Below are positions 4,219 through 20,584 of a stretch of 64,000 bases of DNA, piece after piece. Position 1 is the first letter of the stretch. The number at the start of each line of letters is the position of its first letter. The notes under the pieces were generated by a model. That model searched no databases and was not told the origin of the DNA. It was given only the letters and a program-made list of their open reading frames with translations. The DNA lies in the NCBI GenBank assembly GCA_017512885.1, contig JAFWEP010000001.1:1-64000 (forward strand). The letters are read 5' to 3'. The position numbers and the translations under genes are program-made. This DNA comes from Erysipelotrichaceae bacterium. Lineage in GTDB: Bacteria; Bacillota_I; Bacilli_A; Erysipelotrichales; Erysipelotrichaceae.

Positions 4219-4250
4219 GATAAAGGAGATCCTTAAGGATCTCCTTTATC
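4219..4250. terminator. Bidirectional terminator between convergent genes
   Basis: A perfect 14-bp stem with loop TTAA. It contains the stop codon of the leftward gene (4246-4248). No long T-run lies outside the stem on either side. Confidence 0.65.
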
Positions 4251-5733
4251 TAACTCTGTATTCCAGTTCTTCCGGCAGTTCCAGTACTGTCTTTCCTTCG
4301 AATGTCAGTATAAAGCGATCGTCCTCCGAATAAGACCGGCGATAATCATCAAAGACATAACTGCCGACCGGAAAGTCTTCGCCCTGGAAATAGAGCGTGA
4401 TCTTCTCCGTCAGGACACAATAATCACACTCCGGGACTGTCACCAGCATCTTCCTTCCGGTGAACCGTTTTTTCTTCAGCGTTAGTTTATAGCCCTTCTT
4501 CAGCTTACTGACAGAAGCGATACAGTCTTCTCTGTCCTGCATCAGAAACCGCAGGAAGGGACCTGCGTTGCCACGCAGGATCTTTCCCTTATGATCTACC
4601 GCGTCTCTTGTCCTGTCCAAAGCATCCCGGATATACCCGGCTACCTGATCATCTCCGTAGTGTTCTTCGTCCATACGTCTCTTCAGGGCATAGTCTGCCT
4701 GCAGATAACAGCCGTAGGCCTGCGGCAGATCTCCGTAAACATCCTCATAGACTCCACCCATCCGTAAAGCGACATCCGCAAACTTCTTGTCTTCCCCGTT
4801 GCAGAAGTCATTCAGGGCATAGCCATACAGTTCTTCGATGATCTGACGATAGGTCTCCGTACTCTGAACGACCCCCTTCCCGCCTTTGTACATATCGGCC
4901 AGTTTATACGTAGACTCATAGAGTTTGTGGATATACCCATAGACAAAGTACGGAAAGGCTTTTTCGTACTCCGGCTTAAAGCCGTTGCAGCGTCCGTAGT
5001 AATAGATATAGCCTAACGCATTCGCATAGGTGGGATCCTGACTCAGTTCAAAGGCTTTCTGCAGGCAGTCCCGGCTGACCTGCCAGTCACAGGGATAAAG
5101 GGAAGAACCGCCATAGGACAGGAAACCTTTGGCCTTTAAGGCCGTGATGTTATGAAGAGCGATCATCTCTTCCACATACCTGCGGAACAGTACTTTCTCT
5201 TCTTCGGAGATCTCTTCCCGGTCTCCTTCTTTCTCATAGATATAGTCGATATAGTCTTCTTTGATGGGGTAAGGGAATTCCCATTCGGTGAAGGGAAGGG
5301 GCTTGTTGAAGAGGTAGGAACGGATGACATCCAGGAGGAGGTCGACTTCGATAACCTGTCCGACCTGTGCTTTTTCCGGGAACCGTGCACTTCTCCAGCA
5401 AGGCAGATCATCAAAAGCATGCAGGACATAGAGCAGCAGATCTTTATCACTTTCGATCAGGCCCCTTGCACAGTAATCCTCTTCCAGCAGATCATCTGTT
5501 CTCAGAACTTCATTCAGCGGGGAAGCCATATCAAAGACCGGAACGAGCCATTCATCCCAGAAACGAAGGAACGGTTCTTCGAACATACTGTCCAGTTTCT
5601 CTACGACAGCGATGATATCTTCAGTCGTAAGGTCGTAGGGTTCATAGGTATCGTGTTTGGGATCAGAAGTGAGTTCGGAATAAGGGATCTCATAGCGGGC
5701 AAAACGCTGCAGCTGTTCTTTTGAGATATGCAT
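4246..5733 (-). CDS. SEL1/TPR-like repeat protein of unknown function
   Basis: A 495-residue soluble protein. Residues ~215-340 hold helical repeats of SEL1 type, with short patterns such as ANALGYIYYYGR and TYKLADMYKGGKGV. The ~200-residue N-terminal part is acidic and helical. The C-terminal ~100 residues look beta-rich. SEL1 repeats usually mediate protein contacts. No signal peptide or catalytic motif is visible. Upstream on the minus strand is TATAAT near 5825. It lies between the sugar/MBL pair and the defence cluster, with no clear functional link to either. Confidence 0.7.
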   Translation of the reverse strand: MHISKEQLQRFARYEIPYSELTSDPKHDTYEPYDLTTEDIIAVVEKLDSMFEEPFLRFWDEWLVPVFDMASPLNEVLRTDDLLEEDYCARGLIESDKDLLLYVLHAFDDLPCWRSARFPEKAQVGQVIEVDLLLDVIRSYLFNKPLPFTEWEFPYPIKEDYIDYIYEKEGDREEISEEEKVLFRRYVEEMIALHNITALKAKGFLSYGGSSLYPCDWQVSRDCLQKAFELSQDPTYANALGYIYYYGRCNGFKPEYEKAFPYFVYGYIHKLYESTYKLADMYKGGKGVVQSTETYRQIIEELYGYALNDFCNGEDKKFADVALRMGGVYEDVYGDLPQAYGCYLQADYALKRRMDEEHYGDDQVAGYIRDALDRTRDAVDHKGKILRGNAGPFLRFLMQDREDCIASVSKLKKGYKLTLKKKRFTGRKMLVTVPECDYCVLTEKITLYFQGEDFPVGSYVFDDYRRSYSEDDRFILTFEGKTVLELPEELEYRVR

Positions 5734-5968: not shown

Positions 5969-8900
5969 TTAGTTACTTTCTTCGTTGATGCTCAGCATAT
6001 CCCCATTCACATTGATCTTTCTCCAGTTCAGTCTCAATGCTTTATCGAATAGTGGTATGGACTGTTCCGTAACCCTCTTAATGCCGCATTGATCTGCAAG
6101 GGTATGGTACAAGGACGTTTTTTCAGCAGAAACATTTATCTTCAGCAGTTCATACATGCCGGCAGCTAGTTCTTCTGGTGCAATTGATGCTATTTCTCGT
6201 TTTTCTAATTCCCCAGCCGTACGGAATTTGATCGGCCGGTCTTTAATATAAAGGAATCCGTCCTTTCTCACTATTCCATAGCTATGACAATTTACCATTT
6301 CTTTCCGGTACTGGTCTTTTACATAACTTGAGACGACTGTTCTATCAAAATAGGCCGAGGTCTTTTTCATCATATATTCTTCAGAAACGGGCGCTTCGAC
6401 CGAAAGAATATCAAAAACCAATTTGACATAACTCCGATATCTGGGCATATATCCAACCCTCGCTACTCTATATGGTTCAAATATCGTTTTGTTCGGGCTC
6501 TCGTTAACTTCATAATTCTTGTCAGATTGTTCGGTATCTGCTGCTCTATTTGTGTCCTTTTGGATCGTAGGACCTGAAGACAAAGCCCTTTCGACTCTAT
6601 CGAGAAGGTCCTTTTTTGCGTTCTCCTTGTGTTTAAACCAGTCTGTAGACCAAATACGATAGAACTTCCACCCCATTCTCTCCAGCACTTCCTGCCTGAG
6701 TCTATCTCTGTCTCTGGCGTTCTTAGAGGAGTGATACGATGCTCCGTCACACTCTACTGCCAAAATGTAGCGTGTATCTTCCTTGTTTCTTAACGCAAGG
6801 TCAATCTTGTAACCGGAGCACCCAACTTGAGTATCCACCCGATATCCATTCGACCTCAAAAATTCACATACTTCCATTTCAAAGTCAGAATCGAATTGGT
6901 CGAACGGATTAACTGTGATACTTCTTTGCAATGCAGCTTCGCCGTTTTCTGCAAAGTCGAGGTATTCCCTTAACAATCTCGCGCCTTCTGCCGAAGTTCT
7001 CGAGAGATCAATATCGTAATAATGCAAAGATGTGACAAGTTGAACATTGATTTTTGCGCGGGTTATGGCTACATTCAGTCTTCGCTCTCCTCCGGCATTA
7101 TTCAAAGGACCAAACCTGTGGTAAAATACTCCGTTTTGGTCTTTCGCATATGCCGTGCTAAAAATGATCGTATCTCTCTCGTCGCCTTGAACGGTTTCAA
7201 GGTTTTTAATAAAGAAAGGCTCTTTTTTCGACTTATTGAAGAAAGATTCGCATTCCGGTTTTTGGATTCTCCTATTTGAGAGTATATTATCGATCATATC
7301 CTGCTGCGCAACACTGAACGCAACCACACCCAAACTTCTGTCTGGACAGTGTTTTATATGATCATAAATCAAATCAACGACTCTCTCCGCTTCAACTCGA
7401 TTTGTACGAGATTTTCTATCAAAAATCCCGTTTACATAAAAGTAAGATATTCCGTTTTCTTCATCCGAAAAATGCGGGGAAGGGAAAGTCAACAATCCGT
7501 TATCATAGAAATTTCTATTTGAAAAGGAAATAAGATCTTCGTTCCTGCTTCTATAATGCCAGGACAACCGTCTCTGCGGCATCGATACAGAACAGATATC
7601 AAGTATTGATTCAAAATCACCGATATCTTCTATTGCATCGTCATCATATTCAGAACCATCTAAACTGACATTAAAGAAATTGCTGGGCGGCATTTGTTTG
7701 GAGTCGCCGACAACAATCAACTGCTCTGCTCTGTAAATAGATCCAATTGCGTCTTGTGGAAAGATCTGAGACGCCTCGTCAAAAATGACAGAATCGAAGT
7801 GAATTGCTCCGTTTCCCAAGAACGTGCTTACGCTAAGCGGAGACATAAGGAAGCAAGGTTTGATACGTTGTATCAATTCGCCGATCGTCAACATTAAGTT
7901 CCTTACTGTCATTTGCTTTCTTTTTTTCTGTCCTTCTCTCATGAGAATAGACAAAGCACTTCCGGCAGCTGCATATGCAATGTTTGGTCTTGTTTCGGAA
8001 AGACGCGACTTGATAATGGCTTTGTTGATCTCAAACTGTTCGCGGTCTGCCTGCTGAAATCTGCGCATTGCGGCATCCTGAATAGCTTTATCAAAAGTTC
8101 TGATTGTTTGGTCAGAAAACACTATGTACTGAATCCAGTTTTTATAGAATACCTTCTGGAATACTCTCGGGACGTTTTCTGGGTATATACCCTCCTCAAT
8201 GATCCGCTCAATAAACGGGATAAGTTCCTGTTCCTTTGCGTTACTCAATAAGTGCCTGAATCCTATCCAATTATCAACTCCATCCGGTTCGGACAGACAC
8301 TTATCCAGTTTACTAATGACATACTCTATGCTTGATTTATCAAAATCAAGTATGTCTTTTTCAAAGCACTCTGCTATGACGGCTTTTTCTTTGGCTTCTT
8401 GTTCAATCAATTCTGATAGTTTCTGATTGAAATCTCTGAAAGCATCCCTTTCACTCTCTAACTGATCATCGTTGATTTTCTCAAAATCCCCAATTTCCAA
8501 TGCCTTTAGAATATCGCCTAACCTACCGATTTCTTCATTAAACCGCTGCCAATCAGTGGATACGCCTTCGTATTCTTTACTAAAATCCGTTGTAATGATC
8601 GTTTCAATACTATCGAATTTTGTTACTAGCTCATGGTACGAATTAAGCTCATCCATCAAGGAAACGGCATCCTGATATGAAATCTTACCGTTATCCTTCT
8701 TTATCATCCTGATTTGATTGATAAACGTTTTGTAGTCGCTGTTAAAGAACCGCTTAAACGGGCTGGAGAACTGCACTTTTAATTCTTTTGCATTCTTTTC
8801 TGAATCAATATTGAAAATCGATTCATCATAATTCTGAAGAATTCTATCTTTTGCTATAAGGACCTCTTGACCGGTATTAGCTAAATTCTGATAGTTAGAA

Positions 8901-10582
8901 ACATTTTCGAAAAGTTTTGTTTCTTTTAGCATGGAAGAGGATATGTATTTCGATTGCGAAAGCAAGCCAAATAACTCTGACCATTTGGCCACATCATCAC
9001 GTTTATTTACATACAGATGATATCTATTGTTTATTGCGTTAATAATAAACTTCAGGTCCTTGTAGTAACTCAGCGTGTTTTCAAGTTCGCCTATCAATCT
9101 ATCTTTTTCTAAAACAGACGAAGGCGTTGCTTTAAAACCATTCCATGGATACAGGTGGTAATCGCTGCCAACTACTTTGGTGTATTCGGTGTATTCTTCC
9201 AAAACCAAAAGCGCACGAGAAAGATAATCTGTGTCTTTCTTCTCGATACCACTTATTTGATAGTTGAGATCCTCGGTATTCCTGAGTTTATAGTAATCCT
9301 CGTATAATTCAAAAAGGCTTTTATTTATTGGCTGATGTACTTTATGCAATTCTTTCGCATAGGTATCAAGCGTCTTTTGTGCCCCAATCTTCTCATCGAT
9401 CTTCGTGCTTGCAGTTTTGCTTATACCTGCGGTTCGTGCTGCCGTTAACGATTTGACGAGATTAGCAATTACTTCTTTCTTGTTCGACTTATAGCTGTGT
9501 AGCTCAAGGCAAAAATCGTCTATGCCAGCCTGTTTTAACTTATCAAATACAACGTTTAACGCTGCCAGTTTCTCTGATACAAATAAGACCTTTTTCCCTT
9601 GCCCAAGAAGTTCAGCAATTATGTTTGTAATTGTTTGGCTTTTTCCAGTACCCGGAGGCCCTTGAAGCACAAAACTCTTACCCGCTCTCGCCATTTCGAT
9701 CGCTTCAATTTGACTGGAATCGGCATCAACAACATTTAACAGATTTACTATGGGATTAGGATCTCTTTCGAATTCGTCCGAATAGCCATCAAATGTATTA
9801 TCTTCGATTGGCTCATTCAGAATGCTCAGCACATTCTTGTTTTGAAGAATTGTTTTTTCGTTATCAATGATGTCCCGATACATATTGATTTTAAGAAACG
9901 AGAAGATTCCGAGTTTGCACTCGTTGCTGACTTCCCACGCCAACGGTTTAAGAACATCACGAATAGTATTTAAGTAGTTATTCAATCCTGATTGGCTCTC
10001 ATCATATTCCGGCAGTTTTAAACCTTGTTCTGTTTCAAGTTTGTACTGGAATGTTGGGTTAAGAATCATTTCGTCGAAACTAACCGTCATTTTATACTGT
10101 TCGAGTTGAGATTCTCTTTCTAAAGAAACCGGCACCAAAAGAACGGGAGCCTTATAGATGTCATTGGAGTAGCCGCTCTCTTTCCAATGAATAAACCCAA
10201 ATGCAATATATGCTACGTTAACGCCAGTTTCTTCCAGATGCTCTCTAGCCTTTTTATCGATACCTTTAATCGCGGCATCTGAATCAGTATGTACATTGAA
10301 CGCAAGAAGAGTCTTTTCGTCCTTTATCTTTCTCTCATACCTTTGCAGATAGTTTTCTTTTGTAACATAGCGCCTTTCTTCTTTTGATATATCATCAAAG
10401 TCCAGCTTAGGACTGTAGATATGAAACACCGAAGTTTTATCAAGTTTTGAGAATAGAGTATTTGAATTTGGCAGAAGAATCTCAGCAGATGCAGTTTTAC
10501 TATCTCTGAAATTGATCAGATTATTACGCTTACCAAAATCAAGCAACTTATTTGCGAGCAATTCTAATTTAGTGTTTTGCAT
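5969..10582 (-). CDS. Giant DUF4011-type superfamily 1 helicase with C-terminal nuclease
   Basis: A 1537-residue protein. The N-terminal ~270 residues match the DUF4011 region found before large UvrD/NAM7-like helicases. Walker A GPPGTGKSQTIT lies at ~308. Walker B FDEASQ and GDSKQMPP follow in the middle, then VQGDERD and NVAITRAK of the second helicase core. Residues ~1230-1310 form a PD-(D/E)XK-type nuclease (KIDLAL...LAVECDGASYH) of the MTES/Vsr-like group, and a DUF3320-like segment lies near ~1390-1450. The long middle is coiled-coil-like. Helicase-nuclease proteins of this build are frequent in anti-phage islands. GGAGG lies seven bases before ATG, and TTGTTT-17-TTATAA is a possible own promoter. 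The gene is AT-richer than the core genes. Confidence 0.85.
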   Translation of the reverse strand: MQNTKLELLANKLLDFGKRNNLINFRDSKTASAEILLPNSNTLFSKLDKTSVFHIYSPKLDFDDISKEERRYVTKENYLQRYERKIKDEKTLLAFNVHTDSDAAIKGIDKKAREHLEETGVNVAYIAFGFIHWKESGYSNDIYKAPVLLVPVSLERESQLEQYKMTVSFDEMILNPTFQYKLETEQGLKLPEYDESQSGLNNYLNTIRDVLKPLAWEVSNECKLGIFSFLKINMYRDIIDNEKTILQNKNVLSILNEPIEDNTFDGYSDEFERDPNPIVNLLNVVDADSSQIEAIEMARAGKSFVLQGPPGTGKSQTITNIIAELLGQGKKVLFVSEKLAALNVVFDKLKQAGIDDFCLELHSYKSNKKEVIANLVKSLTAARTAGISKTASTKIDEKIGAQKTLDTYAKELHKVHQPINKSLFELYEDYYKLRNTEDLNYQISGIEKKDTDYLSRALLVLEEYTEYTKVVGSDYHLYPWNGFKATPSSVLEKDRLIGELENTLSYYKDLKFIINAINNRYHLYVNKRDDVAKWSELFGLLSQSKYISSSMLKETKLFENVSNYQNLANTGQEVLIAKDRILQNYDESIFNIDSEKNAKELKVQFSSPFKRFFNSDYKTFINQIRMIKKDNGKISYQDAVSLMDELNSYHELVTKFDSIETIITTDFSKEYEGVSTDWQRFNEEIGRLGDILKALEIGDFEKINDDQLESERDAFRDFNQKLSELIEQEAKEKAVIAECFEKDILDFDKSSIEYVISKLDKCLSEPDGVDNWIGFRHLLSNAKEQELIPFIERIIEEGIYPENVPRVFQKVFYKNWIQYIVFSDQTIRTFDKAIQDAAMRRFQQADREQFEINKAIIKSRLSETRPNIAYAAAGSALSILMREGQKKRKQMTVRNLMLTIGELIQRIKPCFLMSPLSVSTFLGNGAIHFDSVIFDEASQIFPQDAIGSIYRAEQLIVVGDSKQMPPSNFFNVSLDGSEYDDDAIEDIGDFESILDICSVSMPQRRLSWHYRSRNEDLISFSNRNFYDNGLLTFPSPHFSDEENGISYFYVNGIFDRKSRTNRVEAERVVDLIYDHIKHCPDRSLGVVAFSVAQQDMIDNILSNRRIQKPECESFFNKSKKEPFFIKNLETVQGDERDTIIFSTAYAKDQNGVFYHRFGPLNNAGGERRLNVAITRAKINVQLVTSLHYYDIDLSRTSAEGARLLREYLDFAENGEAALQRSITVNPFDQFDSDFEMEVCEFLRSNGYRVDTQVGCSGYKIDLALRNKEDTRYILAVECDGASYHSSKNARDRDRLRQEVLERMGWKFYRIWSTDWFKHKENAKKDLLDRVERALSSGPTIQKDTNRAADTEQSDKNYEVNESPNKTIFEPYRVARVGYMPRYRSYVKLVFDILSVEAPVSEEYMMKKTSAYFDRTVVSSYVKDQYRKEMVNCHSYGIVRKDGFLYIKDRPIKFRTAGELEKREIASIAPEELAAGMYELLKINVSAEKTSLYHTLADQCGIKRVTEQSIPLFDKALRLNWRKINVNGDMLSINEESN

Positions 10583-10664: not shown

Positions 10665-11140
10665 TCACTCTACGTCAACAATACTTCCTAAGTTTGCGTA
10701 GTACTCCACCAGGAATCTCTTTTCTTTTTTTGTGATCTCTTCTTTCTTCTCCTCGGTCAGTTCTCTCCAGAGCACCGGATTGAACGAAAGAATATTGAGA
10801 TCTTTGGAATAGTAGACGAATCGCTTTCTTTCGAATTTCTCGAAAGGATTGGAGAGGATCGACTGTTTCATCTTTGTCCTGTCATTCAGATATTCACGGT
10901 CCAGCACACAGTTTTTCCTGTCCACGGGCAATCCTTTATCCAGTCGGTCGATATAGAACGCACAGTAACGATCGATCAGTTCATCGATATTCACTTCTCC
11001 TTCTGTATCCGCCAGCTTCAGCATCGACAACATGAATATCAGTTTGAAGGAGAAAGTCAGTGTATTCTCGTCGATGAAATCTTCAAAGTCCTTCAGGATC
11101 GTAGAATCATCATGTTTCCCAAGTTTATGCTCAGTCCGTA
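10665..11140 (-). CDS. C-terminal part of the nuclease-helicase, in the -1 frame
   Basis: This frame is open from the A7 run of the upstream gene to TAA at 10665. It encodes a continuation (HDDSTILKDFEDFIDENT onward, ending ANLGSIVDVE) that looks like the usual C-terminus of DEAD/DEAH nuclease-helicases of this type. The first ATG in frame (11031-11033) lies in the middle of this domain and has no good ribosome binding site, so it is unlikely to be a separate gene. It is probably joined to the preceding frame by -1 slippage, or it is the distal part of a frameshifted gene. Confidence 0.6.
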
Positions 11141-13171
11141 TTTTTTTACATCTTCTTTCGAGAAGTATGGCACCATCCGGGAACCTATCGGCAGCTGCAA
11201 TGAGCTGATCGAGTTGTCTTTGCGATACCAGCTCATCAGCGAGGAAGTGCCGATAAACAGTTCTCTGGCTGCCTGTTCCGGAGAAAGATAATCGCCGTAT
11301 TTTTCTTCAAAGGTATAGATATCGATCTCCTGCATGGCAACTTCTGTTTCACTCAGGCCCAGGATCTCCAGATATTCGCTGTCATTGTTTTTGACGCCCA
11401 TAAAGTCTGAATACAGCGGAATATGCATCAGCGAGTTGAAGCAGATCGGAACCAGTTTTCCGGCATAGTTATCTACCACGTCGATAACGTAAAGACACTC
11501 TTTCCCGTCGTTCTTTCTGACGCCGCGTCCCATCTGCTGCATATACAGGACCTTGGAAAGGGTAGGTCTGGCCATGACCACGACTTCGGTCTGCGGTGAA
11601 TCCCAGCCTTCTGAGATCAGCTGACAGGAAAGCAGGAACTGGATCTCCTTGTTGGCATACTGTTCCAGGATCTCTTCGTTGTTCTTGTTGGAACCGAAGA
11701 CAGCCTTTGCCTTGAAACCGGCTTTCGTCATCATCTTCTCCAGCTTCTGTGCGTGTTTGACATTCACGCAGAAAACGATGCCCTGTTTATAGAAATCTTT
11801 TCTGGGAGAGAAATACTTCTTCAGTGTCTGAACGATAAGTTCATTCCGCGAATCTACGATCAGCGTCCTTTCCAGGTCGGCGCCGTTATAGTCCTTGCCG
11901 TTATAGCGGACCATAGAAAGATCAATATTGGAGATCAGCCGGTAACAACGGATGTTTGCAACGATGTCTTTGTCGATCGCTTCCCGGAGGGTCAGCTGCG
12001 TTTTGTACTGTCCGAAGATATCTTCCAGTTTCTTACGGTCCAGTCTCTCCGGTGTTGCGGTCAGGCCCACCAGGTACCTCGGTGTAAAGTACTGCAGTGT
12101 CTTTGCACAGTTAGCTGCCTGAGCGTGCTGGGCTTCGTCAAACAGGATATAGTCATACGCTTCCGGGGGCAGTTCATGGCGGCTTAAGAAGGTTCGGTTA
12201 TATAACTGTACCTTTATATATCCGTGATAATTCATGCGGCTGACGCGATCATTCCAGTCATCCCTGATAGCCTTCGTCGGAACCATGATGAGTGCATTCC
12301 GGATCCTGCCTTCATCGAACAGCCTGGTCATATCCTCAATAGCGATCTGCGATTTCCCGGAACCGGTCGGACATACTACCAGCGAGGTATTGATCCCTCT
12401 GCTGCGGGCCTCACTCAGTTCTTTCAGGGTATCTTCCTGATGTTCATAAAGGGCGAACGGTCTGCTTGCGCCAATCGTATGCGCATTCAAAAACCGGTTC
12501 TTCTCTCCCAGAAAAGAGCGCAGGGTATCAATCGCCTGATCCCGGAACTTCAGATTCTCAAAAGAGAAACGGTAGGTTTTAAAGCCCAGCATCGTTAGCA
12601 TGTTCTGCTTCTCCAGCTGTCTGCGATAGGCCTTTTCTTTGATGATCTGCGGATGATGATAACGGACGCCGTTCTCTTCTATCGCGTAGTTCCCGTCTTC
12701 CGTCTCTACGACATAATCCACGAAGGCATTCCTGCCGTTGTCCAATGAGAGCGAATACTCTTTCTGCAGATAACTCAGAGAATCGTTGCCGTATGCTTCC
12801 AGGAAGATATCTTCAAATTCCTTCTCCAGCGGTGTATTGTCTACATGACTTTTGTCAAAGGACCCGCCATTGTCGCTGATCTCTATGTTGTCCAGTTCAA
12901 CACTGAACCAGCTGTCGAGTTCCTTTTCAATATCCGTATCGTCAGAAACATAGAAACGCATCAGTTCGTCCGCTTTTGCCATCCAGACATTCTGCATCTC
13001 ACAGTATTTCGAGTATTCAAAAACCCTGTCCGAATCCAGACGGCAGAGATCGTGATCTAGGATCACGTACTTCTTATGGTTTCTGTATACAGAGGAGTAA
13101 TGTGTTTCGTCGTAATAGTAGTCTTCTACCCACTCATACCCTCTGTTTTCTAACGATCTTCTTTCACTCAT
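11093..13171 (-). CDS. Nuclease-DEAD/DEAH helicase (type III-like), frame-interrupted near the C-terminus
   Basis: 692 residues in this frame. Residues ~110-215 resemble a PD-(D/E)XK/DUF559-like nuclease (NAFVDYVVET...YAIEENG). A superfamily 2 core follows: Walker A CPTGSGKS at ~268, DEAQ at ~342, TATPER, and motif VI QQMGRGVRKNDGK. The frame stops at 11093, seven codons after GGGAAAC, while a -1 frame continues for ~145 residues with the expected C-terminal domain. Spliced in silico, the protein would have 835 residues. The start codon overlaps the methyltransferase stop (ATGA), so the two are translationally coupled. Function is inferred as defence or restriction-like from domains and neighbours. 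Confidence 0.8.
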   Translation of the reverse strand: MSERRSLENRGYEWVEDYYYDETHYSSVYRNHKKYVILDHDLCRLDSDRVFEYSKYCEMQNVWMAKADELMRFYVSDDTDIEKELDSWFSVELDNIEISDNGGSFDKSHVDNTPLEKEFEDIFLEAYGNDSLSYLQKEYSLSLDNGRNAFVDYVVETEDGNYAIEENGVRYHHPQIIKEKAYRRQLEKQNMLTMLGFKTYRFSFENLKFRDQAIDTLRSFLGEKNRFLNAHTIGASRPFALYEHQEDTLKELSEARSRGINTSLVVCPTGSGKSQIAIEDMTRLFDEGRIRNALIMVPTKAIRDDWNDRVSRMNYHGYIKVQLYNRTFLSRHELPPEAYDYILFDEAQHAQAANCAKTLQYFTPRYLVGLTATPERLDRKKLEDIFGQYKTQLTLREAIDKDIVANIRCYRLISNIDLSMVRYNGKDYNGADLERTLIVDSRNELIVQTLKKYFSPRKDFYKQGIVFCVNVKHAQKLEKMMTKAGFKAKAVFGSNKNNEEILEQYANKEIQFLLSCQLISEGWDSPQTEVVVMARPTLSKVLYMQQMGRGVRKNDGKECLYVIDVVDNYAGKLVPICFNSLMHIPLYSDFMGVKNNDSEYLEILGLSETEVAMQEIDIYTFEEKYGDYLSPEQAARELFIGTSSLMSWYRKDNSISSLQLPIGSRMVPYFSKEDVKKYGLSINLGNMMILRS

Positions 13172-13770: not shown

Positions 13771-14217
13771 ATAAACCTCCTGATGCAGCTGATCACTTAT
13801 AAACTAATTATACGTGTCCGATCCGAAGCGTTGTACCGCTAATCGCCAATATAAATGTCAAACACAAACTTTTTACTTCATACAACAAATATTTTTTGGA
13901 ATTAACCTGGAGTTCTCCAAAATCGGATAAAACGTGAGATAATTTTGATAGTTATTATCTAATACAAGGTTTATGTACAAAACATAAAGAAACACAAAAG
14001 ACCTTACAGTGCCTTCAAAAACTTCTCAACAAACCAGTTAATGTTCGAGCATCGCAAAGATATGATTCCCGAAACAATTGATACCGCATCTTAATACCGC
14101 CCGAGGTGAAAAAACGGCTGGCAGGTTATTTGGACTGTTAAGTTGATTTAATAGTAATGGATGGGTCGCTGTGAGAAAATGAAGTTAGTCATTTCTCGGC
14201 CATCAGGAGGTATATTG
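13771..14217. other. AT-rich intergenic region upstream of the Wadjet operon
   Basis: About 450 bases without a convincing gene, separating the leftward defence cluster from rightward jetA. AGATAAT/ATTATCT (13937-13943, 13954-13960) is an inverted repeat with a 10-base loop. TTGGAC near 14130 with an AT-rich -10-like stretch 16-17 bases on could be the jet promoter. The strong ribosome binding site of jetA (AGGAGG) lies at the end. Confidence 0.5.
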
Positions 14218-15627
14218 ATGAACCTGTTTGAAATAGTTGGCGATGACTTTTTCAAACCACTTACAAGCATTTATAGATCGATATATCTTCAGTGCATGAA
14301 GATCATTTTTGATTCCTACCGAACAGAATTATCTTACGGTATAGACCGCGAGCTACTGGTTCAGAAACTGACTTATTTCTTTGATGACCTAAATATTCGG
14401 GACATCCATTTTGAAGACACCGAGGAAGTATTGACTGATTCCAGGAATAAAGCCAGCACGTTTCTTAGAAAACTGAAAGAGTATGGGTGGGTCGAATACG
14501 AGACCGGGCCGGATCAGAGGGCTAAAGTCAATATGCCCACTTATGTCGTAACAATCCTACGGAGCTTCGAAAGCATTGAATCAGGAAAAGAAACCGAGTA
14601 TCAAAGCGAGATCTCTGCGATCTATTCGCTGCTGACGAATCCAGATCTTCTTCGAAATCCTTATCCCCAGGTCGTGAAGCCTGTTTATGACCGAACGGTA
14701 GAACTATTCACTGCCTTAAAGATGCTGAATTCCAGTATTAAAAAGTATATTGATGAGCTTACCGAGGACAAAACGGCCGAGGAAATCATTGCAAACTACT
14801 TCACCTATGCCGACAATATCGGTTCTAAAGCCTATCACCGTCTAAATACAAGCGATAACGTATCAAGATTCCGCAACATGATCTTGTCCAAACTCAATGA
14901 TATAGAAGGAAATCCGGACATCTTCGAGCGTGTGGCCTGGGGTTATCAGACAGTCGAGTCAGAACCGGATCTGGATAGCGCCAAAGACCAGGTAAGAAAA
15001 ATGATCAATGATATCCTTGATTACTTTAATTCCTACGATGCTCTCGCAGAAGAGATACGCAAGAAGCATAGTCGCTATCTGGGCAACACAGTTCGCCGGG
15101 CACGCTTCCTGCTCATGAATACCAACAATACCGAAGGGAAGATCAGTACGATCCTTCGATATATGGCGGATCAGTTGAACAAAGACGAAGAATCTCACCT
15201 GGACGAGGACGCTCCGGAAGAGATCTGTTCGCTCTTCAGCATATTCCCGCAAGGATTTATCAGCGAAGAGTCGATCAAATCCATGCCTGTATCTAGAAAG
15301 ATCACGGATGTGGAAGAGATATTCTCTCCGCTTTCACTGAGCGAAGAAGAAAGGAGAGCAATCAGACTCTCTGCCTACGAAAAGAACAAAAACCGCTTCA
15401 GCAAGAAAAACATTACGGCTTTTGTAAACGAACTGCTGAAAGATAAGGATCATGTGCTCGCCTCATCGATCGAGATAAACAGCCGACGTGACATGATCCG
15501 CGTGATCTTCATAAGTTTATACGGTCAGGGAAACAGATCGGAATATGAAGTAAAGCAAACCGACATGACCATAAGAAAACAGGGATTCATCTACAATGAC
15601 TTCGAAATAAGGAGGCGACGTAAATGA
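14218..15627 (+). CDS. jetA: Wadjet subunit JetA
   Basis: 469 residues from the ATG that sits eight bases after AGGAGG; an upstream in-frame ATG at 14161 has no such site. It matches the DUF5716-type JetA, the kleisin-like subunit with winged-helix ends that bridges the SMC heads. Wadjet is an SMC-family complex that senses and cuts small circular DNA such as plasmids. Its 3' end overlaps jetB (ATGA), the first of four tightly coupled genes. The subtype was not decided, because that needs comparison of all four families. Confidence 0.88.
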   Translation: MNLFEIVGDDFFKPLTSIYRSIYLQCMKIIFDSYRTELSYGIDRELLVQKLTYFFDDLNIRDIHFEDTEEVLTDSRNKASTFLRKLKEYGWVEYETGPDQRAKVNMPTYVVTILRSFESIESGKETEYQSEISAIYSLLTNPDLLRNPYPQVVKPVYDRTVELFTALKMLNSSIKKYIDELTEDKTAEEIIANYFTYADNIGSKAYHRLNTSDNVSRFRNMILSKLNDIEGNPDIFERVAWGYQTVESEPDLDSAKDQVRKMINDILDYFNSYDALAEEIRKKHSRYLGNTVRRARFLLMNTNNTEGKISTILRYMADQLNKDEESHLDEDAPEEICSLFSIFPQGFISEESIKSMPVSRKITDVEEIFSPLSLSEEERRAIRLSAYEKNKNRFSKKNITAFVNELLKDKDHVLASSIEINSRRDMIRVIFISLYGQGNRSEYEVKQTDMTIRKQGFIYNDFEIRRRRK

Positions 15628-16259
15628 TGGATGTACAGGATATTTTGGGAAATGTCCCAAAAGACAGATTCCGTTCCGTTATCAACTCACTTTTGAATGA
15701 GTGTTTTATCCTCAAGGGAGTTGCGGATACAGCATCTGATTACCGTTTTATCATGGCTAATACAGAAACGTTTGAGACCGTATTGGACCTCCTTGGCTAC
15801 GATCTGATCGTCCGAGACGATTTGGGAGTCATTACCGTCAATAATCCCGCCGGTACTGGCAGAGTACATTTTTCTAAACTTGAAAGTATCCTGGCTCTGA
15901 TCCTTCGGCTGCTCTACATCGAAAAAATGAAGGAACTGTCGCAGTCAAAAGAAGTGATCGTTCTTCTGGAAGAGATCTATGAAAAATACGATATGTTGAA
16001 ACTAGGGAAATTAGGAAAGCTGCAGATGTTGAATTCCCTGCGTTCCTTTAAACGTGTAAACCTTATCCAGAACCTGGATCGTCTCGATACTGGTAATATG
16101 GATATCCGTATTCAGATATATCCATCTATCATGCTGGCGCTGACCGCAAGCAGTCTTGACGATGCGTATAAACTGGCGCAGGAAAAACTGAACGAGTTCA
16201 GCAAGGGAGGTGAGGACGTTGACGATGCAGACGAACGATCAGATGAAGACATTGACTAA
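15624..16259 (+). CDS. jetB: Wadjet subunit JetB
   Basis: 211 residues of the DUF4194 type, the KITE-like small subunit that binds the JetA kleisin. The N-terminal part is a winged-helix-like fold. The C-terminus is very acidic (EDVDDADERSDEDID). AGGAGG precedes the start, and ATG overlaps the jetA stop. The 3' end overlaps the start region of jetC by about 40 bases. Confidence 0.87.
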   Translation: MMDVQDILGNVPKDRFRSVINSLLNECFILKGVADTASDYRFIMANTETFETVLDLLGYDLIVRDDLGVITVNNPAGTGRVHFSKLESILALILRLLYIEKMKELSQSKEVIVLLEEIYEKYDMLKLGKLGKLQMLNSLRSFKRVNLIQNLDRLDTGNMDIRIQIYPSIMLALTASSLDDAYKLAQEKLNEFSKGGEDVDDADERSDEDID

Positions 16260-19200
16260 GATCCGTCTGATCAACTGGCACTATTTCACTGACGAGACCA
16301 TCGATGTCCGCGGTTCAGTTTTGTTCAGCGGGGAAAATGCCTCCGGTAAATCTACGATCCTCGATGCGATCCAGCTGGTCTTAACGACCAACTCTACACG
16401 CTTCAATCCTGCGGCAAACGAAAGAAGCAAACGAAAACTAAACGGTTACGTCCGCTGTAAGACCGGCGAAGAGGGAAATACCTACATCCGGAACAGCGGT
16501 GCTGTAATCTCTTATGTTGCTCTTGAGTTCTATGAACAAAGCAAGAACAATTATTTCGTGATCGGGGTAAAACTTGATTCACCTGATGTCGAATCCGATA
16601 TCACCAAGAAATGGTTTACCGTTGAAGGGCCGATGGATTCTTTGTCTTTTATTGTGAACGGAAAACCGGCAATGGACAAAGAGTTTACTCAGAACGGAAG
16701 ACGAATTCAATTTGAGACCCAGGTCAGCCGAGCAAAGGATAATTTCAAAGTTCGCTTAGGAAGGCTGGACGATAATTTTGAAGAAATGATCATTAAATCC
16801 ATGGCATTCCGTCCCATGGATAAAGTAAAAGACTTTATCAATAATTTCATCCTTCCGAAGAACGTTATTCGAACAGAAGTGCTGCAGGAAAACATCCGCA
16901 ATCTGAAAGAGTTGCAGAATCTCATCAATGAAGTTAAAAAACAGATCGCCCAATTACAGGCGATCCTCAGCAAAGCAGACGAGATTGAACAGAAGAACTA
17001 TGACATTCAGGTGATCGATATCCTGATCAAGATTGCTAGGTTAGAAGATCTGAAGCAGAAGGCGGAGGCGCTGGTACAAAAGATCTCATCTGACCAAACA
17101 ATACTGGAAAACAACAAAAAGAAGCAGGAAACGCTGGAAGAGTCCTTAAACAGCGCTCACAGCAAGCAGGAGGAAGTTAAATTAGCTCTGCAATCCAGCG
17201 AAACCGGTCGGATGATCGATAAACTTAAAGAAAGCGTACGGATCCTTCGTTCAGATCTTTCCAAAGCAGAAAGCGAAGTTAATGCGTTTAAAACACATCT
17301 AAGTCATTTTTCCGTCGCTCTTGACAGTATCTCCGCAGACAAAAGATCATTGAACATTCTGCGCTCACTGAACTACACGACGGAAGAAAAATCAAACGAA
17401 CTGGAGAATATAAAGTCGATATTATCAGACGCAAAAAGGGAAGCTTATAACAATGTTTTTCAACTGAGCGAACGTAAAAACGAGCTAAACAGACAAGCTT
17501 CGGAATTGGAGACCAGAGTTGGAGAGCTAAAAAAGAATCGCTTTGTCTATGATGAAAACACTAACGCCTTGTTGAAAGCCATCAACGAAGAATACACCTC
17601 AAGACGAATCGATTCTAAAGCCAGAGTTTTTGCAGATCTTCTGGAAATCGAACTACCTGAATGGCAGGATGCCGTAGAAGGGTATCTTAATACTCAGAGG
17701 TTCAATATCATCGTGGATCCTGAGTACTACGATATTGCCTCAGAAGTCTATGACCGATTAAGAAAAAAGATACATACGGTCGGTCTGGTCAATACTGGGA
17801 AACTGATGAACGAGGAAAACAGCGATGTTTCAGGTACCCTTGCAGAATGTGTGTCTTCTGAAAACAGATTTGCCAGAGCCTACGCAGATTATCTGCTGAG
17901 AAGAGTAGTGCGCTGCGACTCAGTCCGCGAACTGAAGAACCACAGCATTGCAATCACAAAGACGTGCATGAAATATCAAGGACATGTCCTCTCAAAGATC
18001 AGTGAATCTGTTTATAGAAATCCGTTTATTGGTAAATCAGCTTTACAGATCCAATTGCAGAATGCGGAGAAGGAACTGAGTGATGTGCGCTGTAAACTAG
18101 CTGGTATCAGCGAAGAAAAGAAGAAGAACGATTTCGTCATCAATTGCATCGAGCAATGCAATTTTGACCGCGCCGCTTCTTTGATCACTTGCCAGGAAGA
18201 AATGCATGACATTAAACAGAGGCTCGCAAAAGAAGAGAGAGATCTGAAAGATGCAGAGAACAATCCAACGTTTATCGATCTCAAACAGAAACTCACTGCC
18301 GTTGAAGGTGCGATCGAAACGCTGCAGAATGAAATCAAAGCAGTCATAAAAAGCACAGCAACCAAAGAGGACGAGATCGTCAGAAATCAGAATGATTTAA
18401 AGGATAACGAAGAGTCGTTGCGAAATGCACAGTCTGAGATCGATTCGATCGCCGGATCAGCTCACCGGGCATACACCGATGCAACCGCACGCTATCAGGA
18501 AAATACGCGAACAAAAGATTCCCAGACCATCATCGATAACTACATGCCCCGCAGACAAACCTTGGTAAACCAAAGGGCCAGGATCAACGACTCTCTTATC
18601 GAACTGCAGGCACGTTATAAAGACGGTGATTTCGGCACAGGATTAGAAGTGATCAGCAATTACAGGGATGATTTGAATAAGCTGGAAAGATCAGACCTAG
18701 TCTCTTATGAAGACAAACTCGCTACGATCCAGCGTGACTGTGAGATCGAGTTCCGGGAGAACTTCTTAGCGAAGCTAAGGGAAAATATCGAACGTGCGGA
18801 AATAATCTTCTCCAGGCTCAACCGCTCACTGAAAGGGATCTACTATGGAGAGGATTCTTATAAATTCGAACTGTCTGCTAACAAGCAGAAACAAAGTCTC
18901 TACGACATGATCACATCGGATGTAAATGTTGCCGGAGAGAATCTTTTCTCCTCTTTCTTTGAAGAGAAGTATCACGAAGAGATGGAAGATCTGTTTGCCA
19001 AACTGACCGACGAAGATCTTAGCGATGCAAAAACGATCGATGAGTTAACAGACTACCGTTCGTATCTGGATTATGATATTCATGTCATCTCCAAAGAGGG
19101 AAGAATTCAGAAGTTTTCAAAGACTTACGCAGAAAAAAGCGGTGGCGAAACACAGACCCCGTATTATGTGGCGATTGCAGCCTCCTTTGCGCAAATGTAC

Positions 19201-19431
19201 AGTGGCAGGGAAACGGCACGTATCATTATGCTTGATGAAGCCTTCAACAATATGGACGAGGATCGTATCGCCAGCATGATGCAGTTCCTAAAAAGCCAGA
19301 ACTTCCAGGTGATTTTAGCAGCACCCCCTGCTCGCATGGAGATCATCGGTGAATATGTGGATTCTATTTACCTGACCATACGTCACGGCAATACCAGTGT
19401 TGTTGAGGAGTATTTCTATGAAGAACTATAG
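16219..19431 (+). CDS. jetC: Wadjet subunit JetC, SMC/MukB-like ATPase
   Basis: About 1070 residues. Walker A GENASGKST lies at ~38-46, long coiled-coil arms flank a hinge in the middle, and the C-terminal head has signature EKSGGETQTP and Walker B IIMLDEAFNNMDED (~1004). This is the motor that extrudes DNA loops in Wadjet. The start is uncertain: TTG (16219) is eight bases after GGAGG, ATG (16225) is 14 bases after it, and GTG (16210) lies inside the ribosome binding site. The head motifs are intact, so the protein should be active. Confidence 0.9.
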   Translation: MTMQTNDQMKTLTKIRLINWHYFTDETIDVRGSVLFSGENASGKSTILDAIQLVLTTNSTRFNPAANERSKRKLNGYVRCKTGEEGNTYIRNSGAVISYVALEFYEQSKNNYFVIGVKLDSPDVESDITKKWFTVEGPMDSLSFIVNGKPAMDKEFTQNGRRIQFETQVSRAKDNFKVRLGRLDDNFEEMIIKSMAFRPMDKVKDFINNFILPKNVIRTEVLQENIRNLKELQNLINEVKKQIAQLQAILSKADEIEQKNYDIQVIDILIKIARLEDLKQKAEALVQKISSDQTILENNKKKQETLEESLNSAHSKQEEVKLALQSSETGRMIDKLKESVRILRSDLSKAESEVNAFKTHLSHFSVALDSISADKRSLNILRSLNYTTEEKSNELENIKSILSDAKREAYNNVFQLSERKNELNRQASELETRVGELKKNRFVYDENTNALLKAINEEYTSRRIDSKARVFADLLEIELPEWQDAVEGYLNTQRFNIIVDPEYYDIASEVYDRLRKKIHTVGLVNTGKLMNEENSDVSGTLAECVSSENRFARAYADYLLRRVVRCDSVRELKNHSIAITKTCMKYQGHVLSKISESVYRNPFIGKSALQIQLQNAEKELSDVRCKLAGISEEKKKNDFVINCIEQCNFDRAASLITCQEEMHDIKQRLAKEERDLKDAENNPTFIDLKQKLTAVEGAIETLQNEIKAVIKSTATKEDEIVRNQNDLKDNEESLRNAQSEIDSIAGSAHRAYTDATARYQENTRTKDSQTIIDNYMPRRQTLVNQRARINDSLIELQARYKDGDFGTGLEVISNYRDDLNKLERSDLVSYEDKLATIQRDCEIEFRENFLAKLRENIERAEIIFSRLNRSLKGIYYGEDSYKFELSANKQKQSLYDMITSDVNVAGENLFSSFFEEKYHEEMEDLFAKLTDEDLSDAKTIDELTDYRSYLDYDIHVISKEGRIQKFSKTYAEKSGGETQTPYYVAIAASFAQMYSGRETARIIMLDEAFNNMDEDRIASMMQFLKSQNFQVILAAPPARMEIIGEYVDSIYLTIRHGNTSVVEEYFYEEL

Positions 19432-20584
19432 AGAGCAGATACTCAACAGATTGCTTGATAAATACGAATCCAGCAAGAGTTTCATCGGTGCGAATTCGGT
19501 GAACCAATCCTTCAAGATCGAACTTTCAAAAGTTTTTCCGGAGTATGCCGATGATTCACACGTCAAAGAGATCCAACAGGTGAATGAAGCGGTGAACGAG
19601 CTGGAAAAAGATAGATTTGTCTCCTCTGTATATAGAAGAAACGGTCTTTTGTATGCAGTAAAATTGAACACCGACAGACTGGATGACTGTTACGCAAAAC
19701 TAAAAAGAAGGCCCAAAAAGGACACGAATGAGCAACTTTTAGCAATTCTTGATAAGTACTGCAAAGGCAGTGATGTCGTGAACACATTCGCTCGCACTCA
19801 GATCGAGCGGATCCGGAACAATAAAAAAGTAGAACATTTTAAAGGCGATATAAATGAGTATGAGAGTCTTTTGAAAATTCTCTCCGAAGTTACGAGAGTC
19901 GATAAGGAAACCTTTATACGTGATTTTTCGATCCGGGTGCTGGGTGATTCCAAAGCTTTTGAAAAGATCAAAAGCACTGTAGTCTCGGTGCTTGATCAAT
20001 ACGGTGATTTTCCTGATCGAGATGCTATACTGCAGGATCTGAATATCATAAAGAATCCCGGTCATGTATTTCTTAAAGGTAACGGGATCATTCAGATCAA
20101 AGGTCAGACTATCGATCTGAATGTCCTTCAGGGAGATATTGCCGTTTCTTCATCTCTCCTTCCGGATATAGAAAAGATCACTGTGACCGGGAAATCCGTT
20201 GTAACGATTGAGAACCTGACAACATTCAATTCCTATCGGCCCAGGGATGAGTTTGTCATTTATCTTGGTGGTTATCACAACGCACTGCGCCGGGAGTTCA
20301 TAAAACTCCTTTATAAGCAGAATCCCGAAGCAGAGTACTACCATTATGGTGATATAGATGCCGGTGGATTCTATATCCTTTTGCATCTACGTGCCAAAAC
20401 AGGTGTACAGTTTAAACCGCTGCACATGGACGTAACTACCCTCTCAAACAACATGCAGTTTTCAAAACCCCTGACCGAAAACGATATAAAACGTCTCAAA
20501 AGCTTTGAACAGAGCGAATTCAAAGAAGTCGTTGCGTATATGCTGAAGAATAACTGCAAACTCGAGCAGGAGGCACTTGATTAG
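19418..20584 (+). CDS. jetD: Wadjet subunit JetD, Toprim-type nuclease
   Basis: 388 residues from the ATG preceded by GAGGAG; it overlaps jetC by 14 bases. The N-terminal half is a helical arm domain. The C-terminal half carries the Toprim metal motif YGDIDAGG (~310-317) of the DUF2220/JetD family, related to topoisomerase VI A. It is the DNA-cleaving subunit of the complex. It ends at TAG (20582-20584), four bases into the convergent gene. With all four subunits complete, the operon is probably functional. Confidence 0.9.
   Translation: MKNYREQILNRLLDKYESSKSFIGANSVNQSFKIELSKVFPEYADDSHVKEIQQVNEAVNELEKDRFVSSVYRRNGLLYAVKLNTDRLDDCYAKLKRRPKKDTNEQLLAILDKYCKGSDVVNTFARTQIERIRNNKKVEHFKGDINEYESLLKILSEVTRVDKETFIRDFSIRVLGDSKAFEKIKSTVVSVLDQYGDFPDRDAILQDLNIIKNPGHVFLKGNGIIQIKGQTIDLNVLQGDIAVSSSLLPDIEKITVTGKSVVTIENLTTFNSYRPRDEFVIYLGGYHNALRREFIKLLYKQNPEAEYYHYGDIDAGGFYILLHLRAKTGVQFKPLHMDVTTLSNNMQFSKPLTENDIKRLKSFEQSEFKEVVAYMLKNNCKLEQEALD

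Follow-up and report, generated by a model that had tools for sequence, protein, structure and literature searches.

A nuclease-helicase gene broken at an A7 run in an Erysipelotrichaceae bacterium: very probably a recent indel or a sequencing slip rather than programmed -1 frameshifting

The nuclease-helicase gene (ORF1) carried by a 64,000-nucleotide stretch of an Erysipelotrichaceae bacterium (assembly GCA_017512885.1, contig JAFWEP010000001.1, positions 1 to 64,000; here termed the window) is very probably a frame-broken version of a gene that is normally uninterrupted. The break would stem from a recent, lineage-specific indel in an A run prone to slippage or from a sequencing or assembly slip at the same place. 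The intact protein of this family has about 830 residues and combines a PD-(D/E)XK-like nuclease with an SF2 helicase of the restriction type, an HTH and a C-terminal domain that is conserved. Through a one-base net change in or next to the A run, the last ~158 codons would have come to lie in the -1 frame, and normal translation would then yield 692 residues with the nuclease, the helicase and most of the HTH, followed by a wrong tail of 15 residues in place of the C-terminal domain.

The features of the locus are compiled in Table 1. On the minus strand, the codons for the C-terminal remainder continue without a stop in the -1 frame down to position 10665, and a -1 step at either the A7 run or GGGAAAC gives an 835-residue product that ends there. 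ORF1 stops at the seventh codon past GGGAAAC, after six sense codons. The gene therefore presents an in-frame X_XXY_YYZ heptamer ahead of the 0-frame stop together with an open -1 frame. The sequence-only reading had proposed that short and long forms are generated here by programmed -1 frameshifting, with a simple indel in the A7 run as its fallback. Its placement of the ORF1 end, of the -1 frame to 10665 and of both heptamers is accurate to the base, and its count of the stop as seven codons after the second heptamer is right as well. It had also stated that both heptamers shift into the correct frame: either one leads to 835 residues, but only a shift at A7 gives the homologous protein, as a shift at GGGAAAC would leave about nine wrong residues (YGLSINLGN).

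Table 1. Features of the nuclease-helicase locus and its surroundings (positions in the window)
Feature	Position	Strand	Remarks
DUF4011/AAA_11/AAA_12/MTES_1575 helicase-nuclease	5969-10582	minus	nearly full-length PADLOC PDC-S37 match
Conserved C-terminal domain, 158 codons	10665..11141	minus	-1 frame, unjoined to ORF1; contains NPFEKFERKRF
First ATG-initiated ORF of the -1 frame, 122 aa	10665..11033	minus	no ribosome-binding site
ORF1, truncated nuclease-helicase	11093..13171	minus	692 aa, ATG...TGA; TGA at 11095-11093
GGGAAAC	11114..11120	minus	phase TT[G GGA AAC] only within the out-of-frame stretch
A7 run	11141..11147	minus	in phase GT[A AAA AAA]TAC; homology changes frame here
Excisionase/MerR-type HTH, ~residues 620-677	11141..11314, approximate	minus	conserved YLSxEQxARELF...PYFSxxD segment; position inferred
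SF2 helicase core, ~residues 236-570	11462..12466	minus	best solved relative SauUSI 7clg
PD-(D/E)XK-like nuclease region	12506..12832, approximate	minus	D152, E165/E166-N-G, YHHP; weak MTES_1575
Class-I SAM methyltransferase, small, 200 aa	13168..13770	minus	4-base overlap with ORF1 start
Wadjet type I-like operon, complete: JetA, JetB, JetC, JetD	14161-20584	plus	divergent from methyltransferase/nuclease-helicase

The break point was compared among homologues collected from 60 relatives, 273 genomes of the family and the genome_contigs collection, which extend from Erysipelotrichaceae (70-74% identity) to Lachnospiraceae, a spirochaete and the archaeon Methanomicrobium mobile. The break point is spanned by 49 records (about 37 distinct genomes once same-contig duplicates are merged) from bacteria and one archaeon, with identities of 40-74%, all of which lie outside the source species and genus. 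Each of the 49 reads through in a single continuous frame and none, including those at 70-74% identity, has A7 at this point; homologue codons are, for example, GAT ATT GAG AAG ATC AGA versus GAT GTA AAA AAA TAC GGA in the window. Protein homology restarts in the -1 frame directly after the A run (DVKK followed by IRTEHKLGKHDDST; homologues DIEKIRTSRNLGVHDETT and DIENIRVTHNLGKHDDTT), and a DNA alignment with eight relatives places the single-base gap of the window sequence at A7. More distant homologues have Tyr directly after the run; since the nearest ones carry Ile there, a base event within the A run appears favoured over an event in the codon just beyond. A break confined to one genome amid continuous homologues is the pattern of a singleton indel pseudogene or a sequencing error, and the conservation of frame change and slippery site that marks programmed -1 frameshifting is absent among these homologues. 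An alignment of relatives had been named as a check by the sequence-only reading, with unbroken relatives free of slippery sites as the outcome that speaks against programming. This is the outcome obtained, so that its headline of programmed short and long forms fails, and its fallback of a simple indel is backed by homologues that read through in one frame. In a published survey, programmed frameshifting is considered to need a conserved site, and singleton breaks confirmed by homologues are attributed to indels or sequencing errors (PMC3711429). The GeneTack singleton frame-broken genes of that work are likewise confirmed by homologues, confined to one genome, associated with a poly-A run and broken close to the 3' end, and no difference of substance separates them from the nuclease-helicase break (PMC3711429).

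Programmed -1 ribosomal frameshifting at A_AAA_AAA or G_GGA_AAC, with the short and the 835-residue forms as regulated products, is an extremely unlikely explanation, even though a canonical in-frame heptamer stands right at the frame change and the downstream frame is undecayed. Both heptamers are also known from frameshift sites of IS elements, A_AAA_AAA being common among those with -1 frameshifting (PMC4066793). Apart from the lack of conservation in all 49 records, the presence of these motifs carries little weight. The source genome was sampled in stretches totalling ~790 kb, which served for heptamer and homopolymer counts alike. In this sample, 680 ORFs of 120 aa or longer comprise 237,006 codons and contain 494 X_XXY_YYZ heptamers in frame, or about one per 480 codons, so that ~1.4 are expected in the 692 codons of ORF1 and two are present. 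In-frame A_AAA_AAA is rarer, with seven occurrences in the same 237,006 codons, and A7 has been described as under-represented in all three frames, for which indel mutation and transcriptional slippage are possible reasons (PMC4066793). Here, the loss of a base from an A run covering two lysine codons leaves A_AAA_AAA automatically, and the heptamer is therefore not independent evidence. The second heptamer derives from the true coding sequence: read in the homologous frame, GGGAAAC encodes Gly-Lys and supplies the first base of a His codon, and one homologue (L070) contains the same letters as GGG AAA CAC in normal register, where they do not form a slippery site. GGGAAAC was rejected as the site of a shift, as the stretch from A7 to GGGAAAC already reads like the family in the -1 frame, and it plays no part because homology restarts immediately after the A run. 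Additionally, neither kind of stimulator accompanies the heptamers. The stretches downstream of the two sites, searched for a stem-loop, fold no better than shuffles (z = -0.73 and -0.79), and the 15 bases before A7, screened for an upstream SD-like element, reach an anti-SD energy of -1.8 kcal/mol, which is equalled at 59% of in-frame positions; the sequence-only reading had likewise seen no clear stimulatory stem or upstream Shine-Dalgarno. The best heptamers attain only ~0.3% in E. coli when no stimulator is present (PMC4066793), which further argues against programming. The -1 frameshifting of dnaX and of the IS3 family (A_AAA_AAG or A_AAA_AAA) resembles ORF1 in that an A-rich heptamer lies in frame and the -1 frame beyond it is open; in contrast to these systems, the nuclease-helicase site is unconserved and has neither an upstream SD-like element nor a downstream structure.

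The state of the downstream frame bears on the age of the break. In comparison with the six nearest full-length homologues, identity is 70-74% before and 70-75% after the break, and differences from homologue L069 at codon positions 1/2/3 (0.19/0.14/0.53 versus 0.22/0.16/0.58) are alike on either side. As both sides are equally conserved, the break is either very recent or an artefact; recent mutation, error and recoding are told apart by the absence of site conservation and not by the equal identities. Separate translation of the C-terminal part from the ATG at 11033 was considered and rejected, with an anti-SD duplex of +0.6 kcal/mol, and the 122-aa ORF is probably not made separately because it has no ribosome-binding site. 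A recent indel could instead be partly rescued by unprogrammed slippage of the ribosome or of RNA polymerase on A7, yielding a little full-length enzyme. Such a rescue is considered very unlikely: A7 allows either kind of slippage in principle and the C-terminal frame is intact, but an error, or a break of very recent date, would leave the C-terminal sequence just as intact, and seven A's are at or under the length at which transcriptional slippage operates, usually runs of eight or more (PMC3711429). It is likewise very improbable that the fresh loss of frame created a heptamer which now splits expression into a truncated product and a little full-length protein, so that a defence gene would just have acquired a recoding site by accident. 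Still less probable than any of these is phase variation, in which the A run would toggle the nuclease-helicase gene between cells. The homopolymer does lie inside a probable defence gene, and A/T runs of at least 7, a length that A7 reaches, have been counted as possible phase-variation repeats (PMC3711429); however, seven A's make a short run for a switch based on replication slippage, and the run is missing in the homologues, whose own breaks sit at unrelated sites. The broken-copy reading, in turn, has to accommodate that A_AAA_AAA is usable by bacteria, so that some full-length protein is possible, that the C-terminal frame is free of decay and that the source assembly shows no credible frame break in ~180 compared genes.

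Within the broken-copy reading, a genuine indel at the A run is, by judgement, somewhat more probable than not, and a sequencing or assembly error at the same position is a serious but lesser possibility. Other copies of the gene are broken as well. Among cultured strains, the copy of Sarcina sp. DSM 11001 has a frame break near residue 80, beside A6 (L034 near 4220-4270), and that of Sharpea azabuensis DSM 18934 an in-frame TAG at 218; two further copies contain a TGA at 516 (L048) and a TAG at 557 (L081). These independent breaks at other sites indicate that loss of the nuclease-helicase gene is common, as for many defence genes. The comparison of the ~180 source-assembly genes was made with same-genus counterparts, and its result implies that neither errors nor pseudogenes are common in this assembly; apparent breaks in the protein-based scan against the same-genus genome were traced to antisense ORFs, to starts set too far upstream or to the edges of sampled stretches, and a codon-usage scan for further frame breaks returned adjacent or overlapping genes only. 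Regarding homopolymers, the 790 kb of the source genome contain 65 A/T runs of length 7, two of length 8 and none longer, versus 172 of length 7, 12 of length 8 and 13 longer than 7 in a same-genus genome (G003). The scarcity of A/T runs of at least 8 fits runs that are unstable or selected against, as well as runs that are under-called. Genome-wide homopolymer collapse was considered and is not proven, given that the same-genus genome also drops sharply, if less so, past length 7.

The assignment of ORF1 as a nuclease-helicase, made in the sequence-only reading, is borne out: the protein has an SF2 helicase and, at its N-terminus, a PD-(D/E)XK-like nuclease. Pfam matches are ResIII (4e-23) and Helicase_C (2e-13), with MTES_1575 (0.0012) below the cut-off; the nuclease motif residues D152, E165/E166-N-G and YHHP are invariant or nearly so across homologues (alignments A1, A2 and A3). 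HTH_17 is matched in 5/20 and MerR_1 in 2/20 homologues. The nearest solved helicase core is that of SauUSI (PDB 7clg), both by sequence (9.7e-46) and by fold (4.8e-17), the latter based on a model of the intact homologue L032 with moderate confidence (pTM 0.45). SauUSI is an ATP-dependent type IV restriction enzyme, categorized as mREase_IV in PADLOC, and shares with the nuclease-helicase an arrangement of N-terminal nuclease, SF2 helicase and C-terminal extension. An SF2 helicase core of the SauUSI type is thus present, and PADLOC matches are limited to this region. The nuclease of SauUSI is of the phospholipase-D type (PMC3874153), whereas no PLD match was obtained for the N-terminus of the nuclease-helicase, which has the PD-(D/E)XK-like MTES_1575 instead; the HTH and an unrelated C-terminal domain are additional differences from SauUSI.

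The C-terminal domain, which ORF1 no longer encodes in frame, contains an invariant NPFEKFERKRF in all homologues aligned over that end (alignment A5). Loss of this domain, which all these homologues possess, probably leaves the 692-residue protein inactive or altered, as the analogy to SauUSI-like enzymes also suggests. In an intact homologue (L032:6038-6499), the domain has no Pfam relative and no clear PDB relative. A high-confidence model generated from 20 homologues and the window fragment (pLDDT 91, pTM 0.85) gave only sub-threshold, winged-helix-like matches among solved structures (best E 0.21). In a viral library, two fold matches were obtained (TM 0.84 and 0.90, E ~1e-8 and 1e-7), whose carriers, an 'AAA ATPase' and a 'DUF262 protein', are encoded on one contig of Siphoviridae sp. 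ctg0K17. The fold shared with these two proteins suggests a recognition or partner-binding domain that may circulate as a mobile module among defence proteins. As for the distribution of the family, a nuclease-helicase 61% identical to that of the window is present in the archaeon Methanomicrobium mobile (L063), and the other copies belong mainly to gut and rumen Bacillota. The archaeal gene is likely to reflect a transfer between domains. A scan of viral contigs returned distant helicases only.

A methyltransferase gene adjoins the nuclease-helicase gene on the same strand in 29/35 loci, upstream in 21 and downstream in 8; the neighbouring methyltransferases are 28-69% identical (L032-L061, L065 and L066), and the pair is also present in the window. 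By this recurrent gene order, the methyltransferase and the nuclease-helicase are a predicted conserved two-gene module, with the downstream DUF4011 gene outside it. No match to this pair as a system was obtained in PADLOC 2.0 or NCBIfam, and a literature search on the pair returned nothing specific. The DUF4011 helicase-nuclease falls below the NCBIfam anti-phage ProA cut-off and is without ~356 N-terminal model positions. Together with the Wadjet JetABCD operon, it makes the genomic setting of the nuclease-helicase a defence island, and ORF1 is probably a gene for anti-phage defence.

Recoding of a defence enzyme by programmed frameshifting would have been a rare find, but it is not supported here. 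The lesson of this locus is that a frame break which coincides with a slippery heptamer says little for recoding on its own, as the loss of a base in an in-phase A run creates one. What is worth keeping is a nuclease-helicase family that the defence library used does not cover as a system and that is accompanied by a methyltransferase in most genomes.
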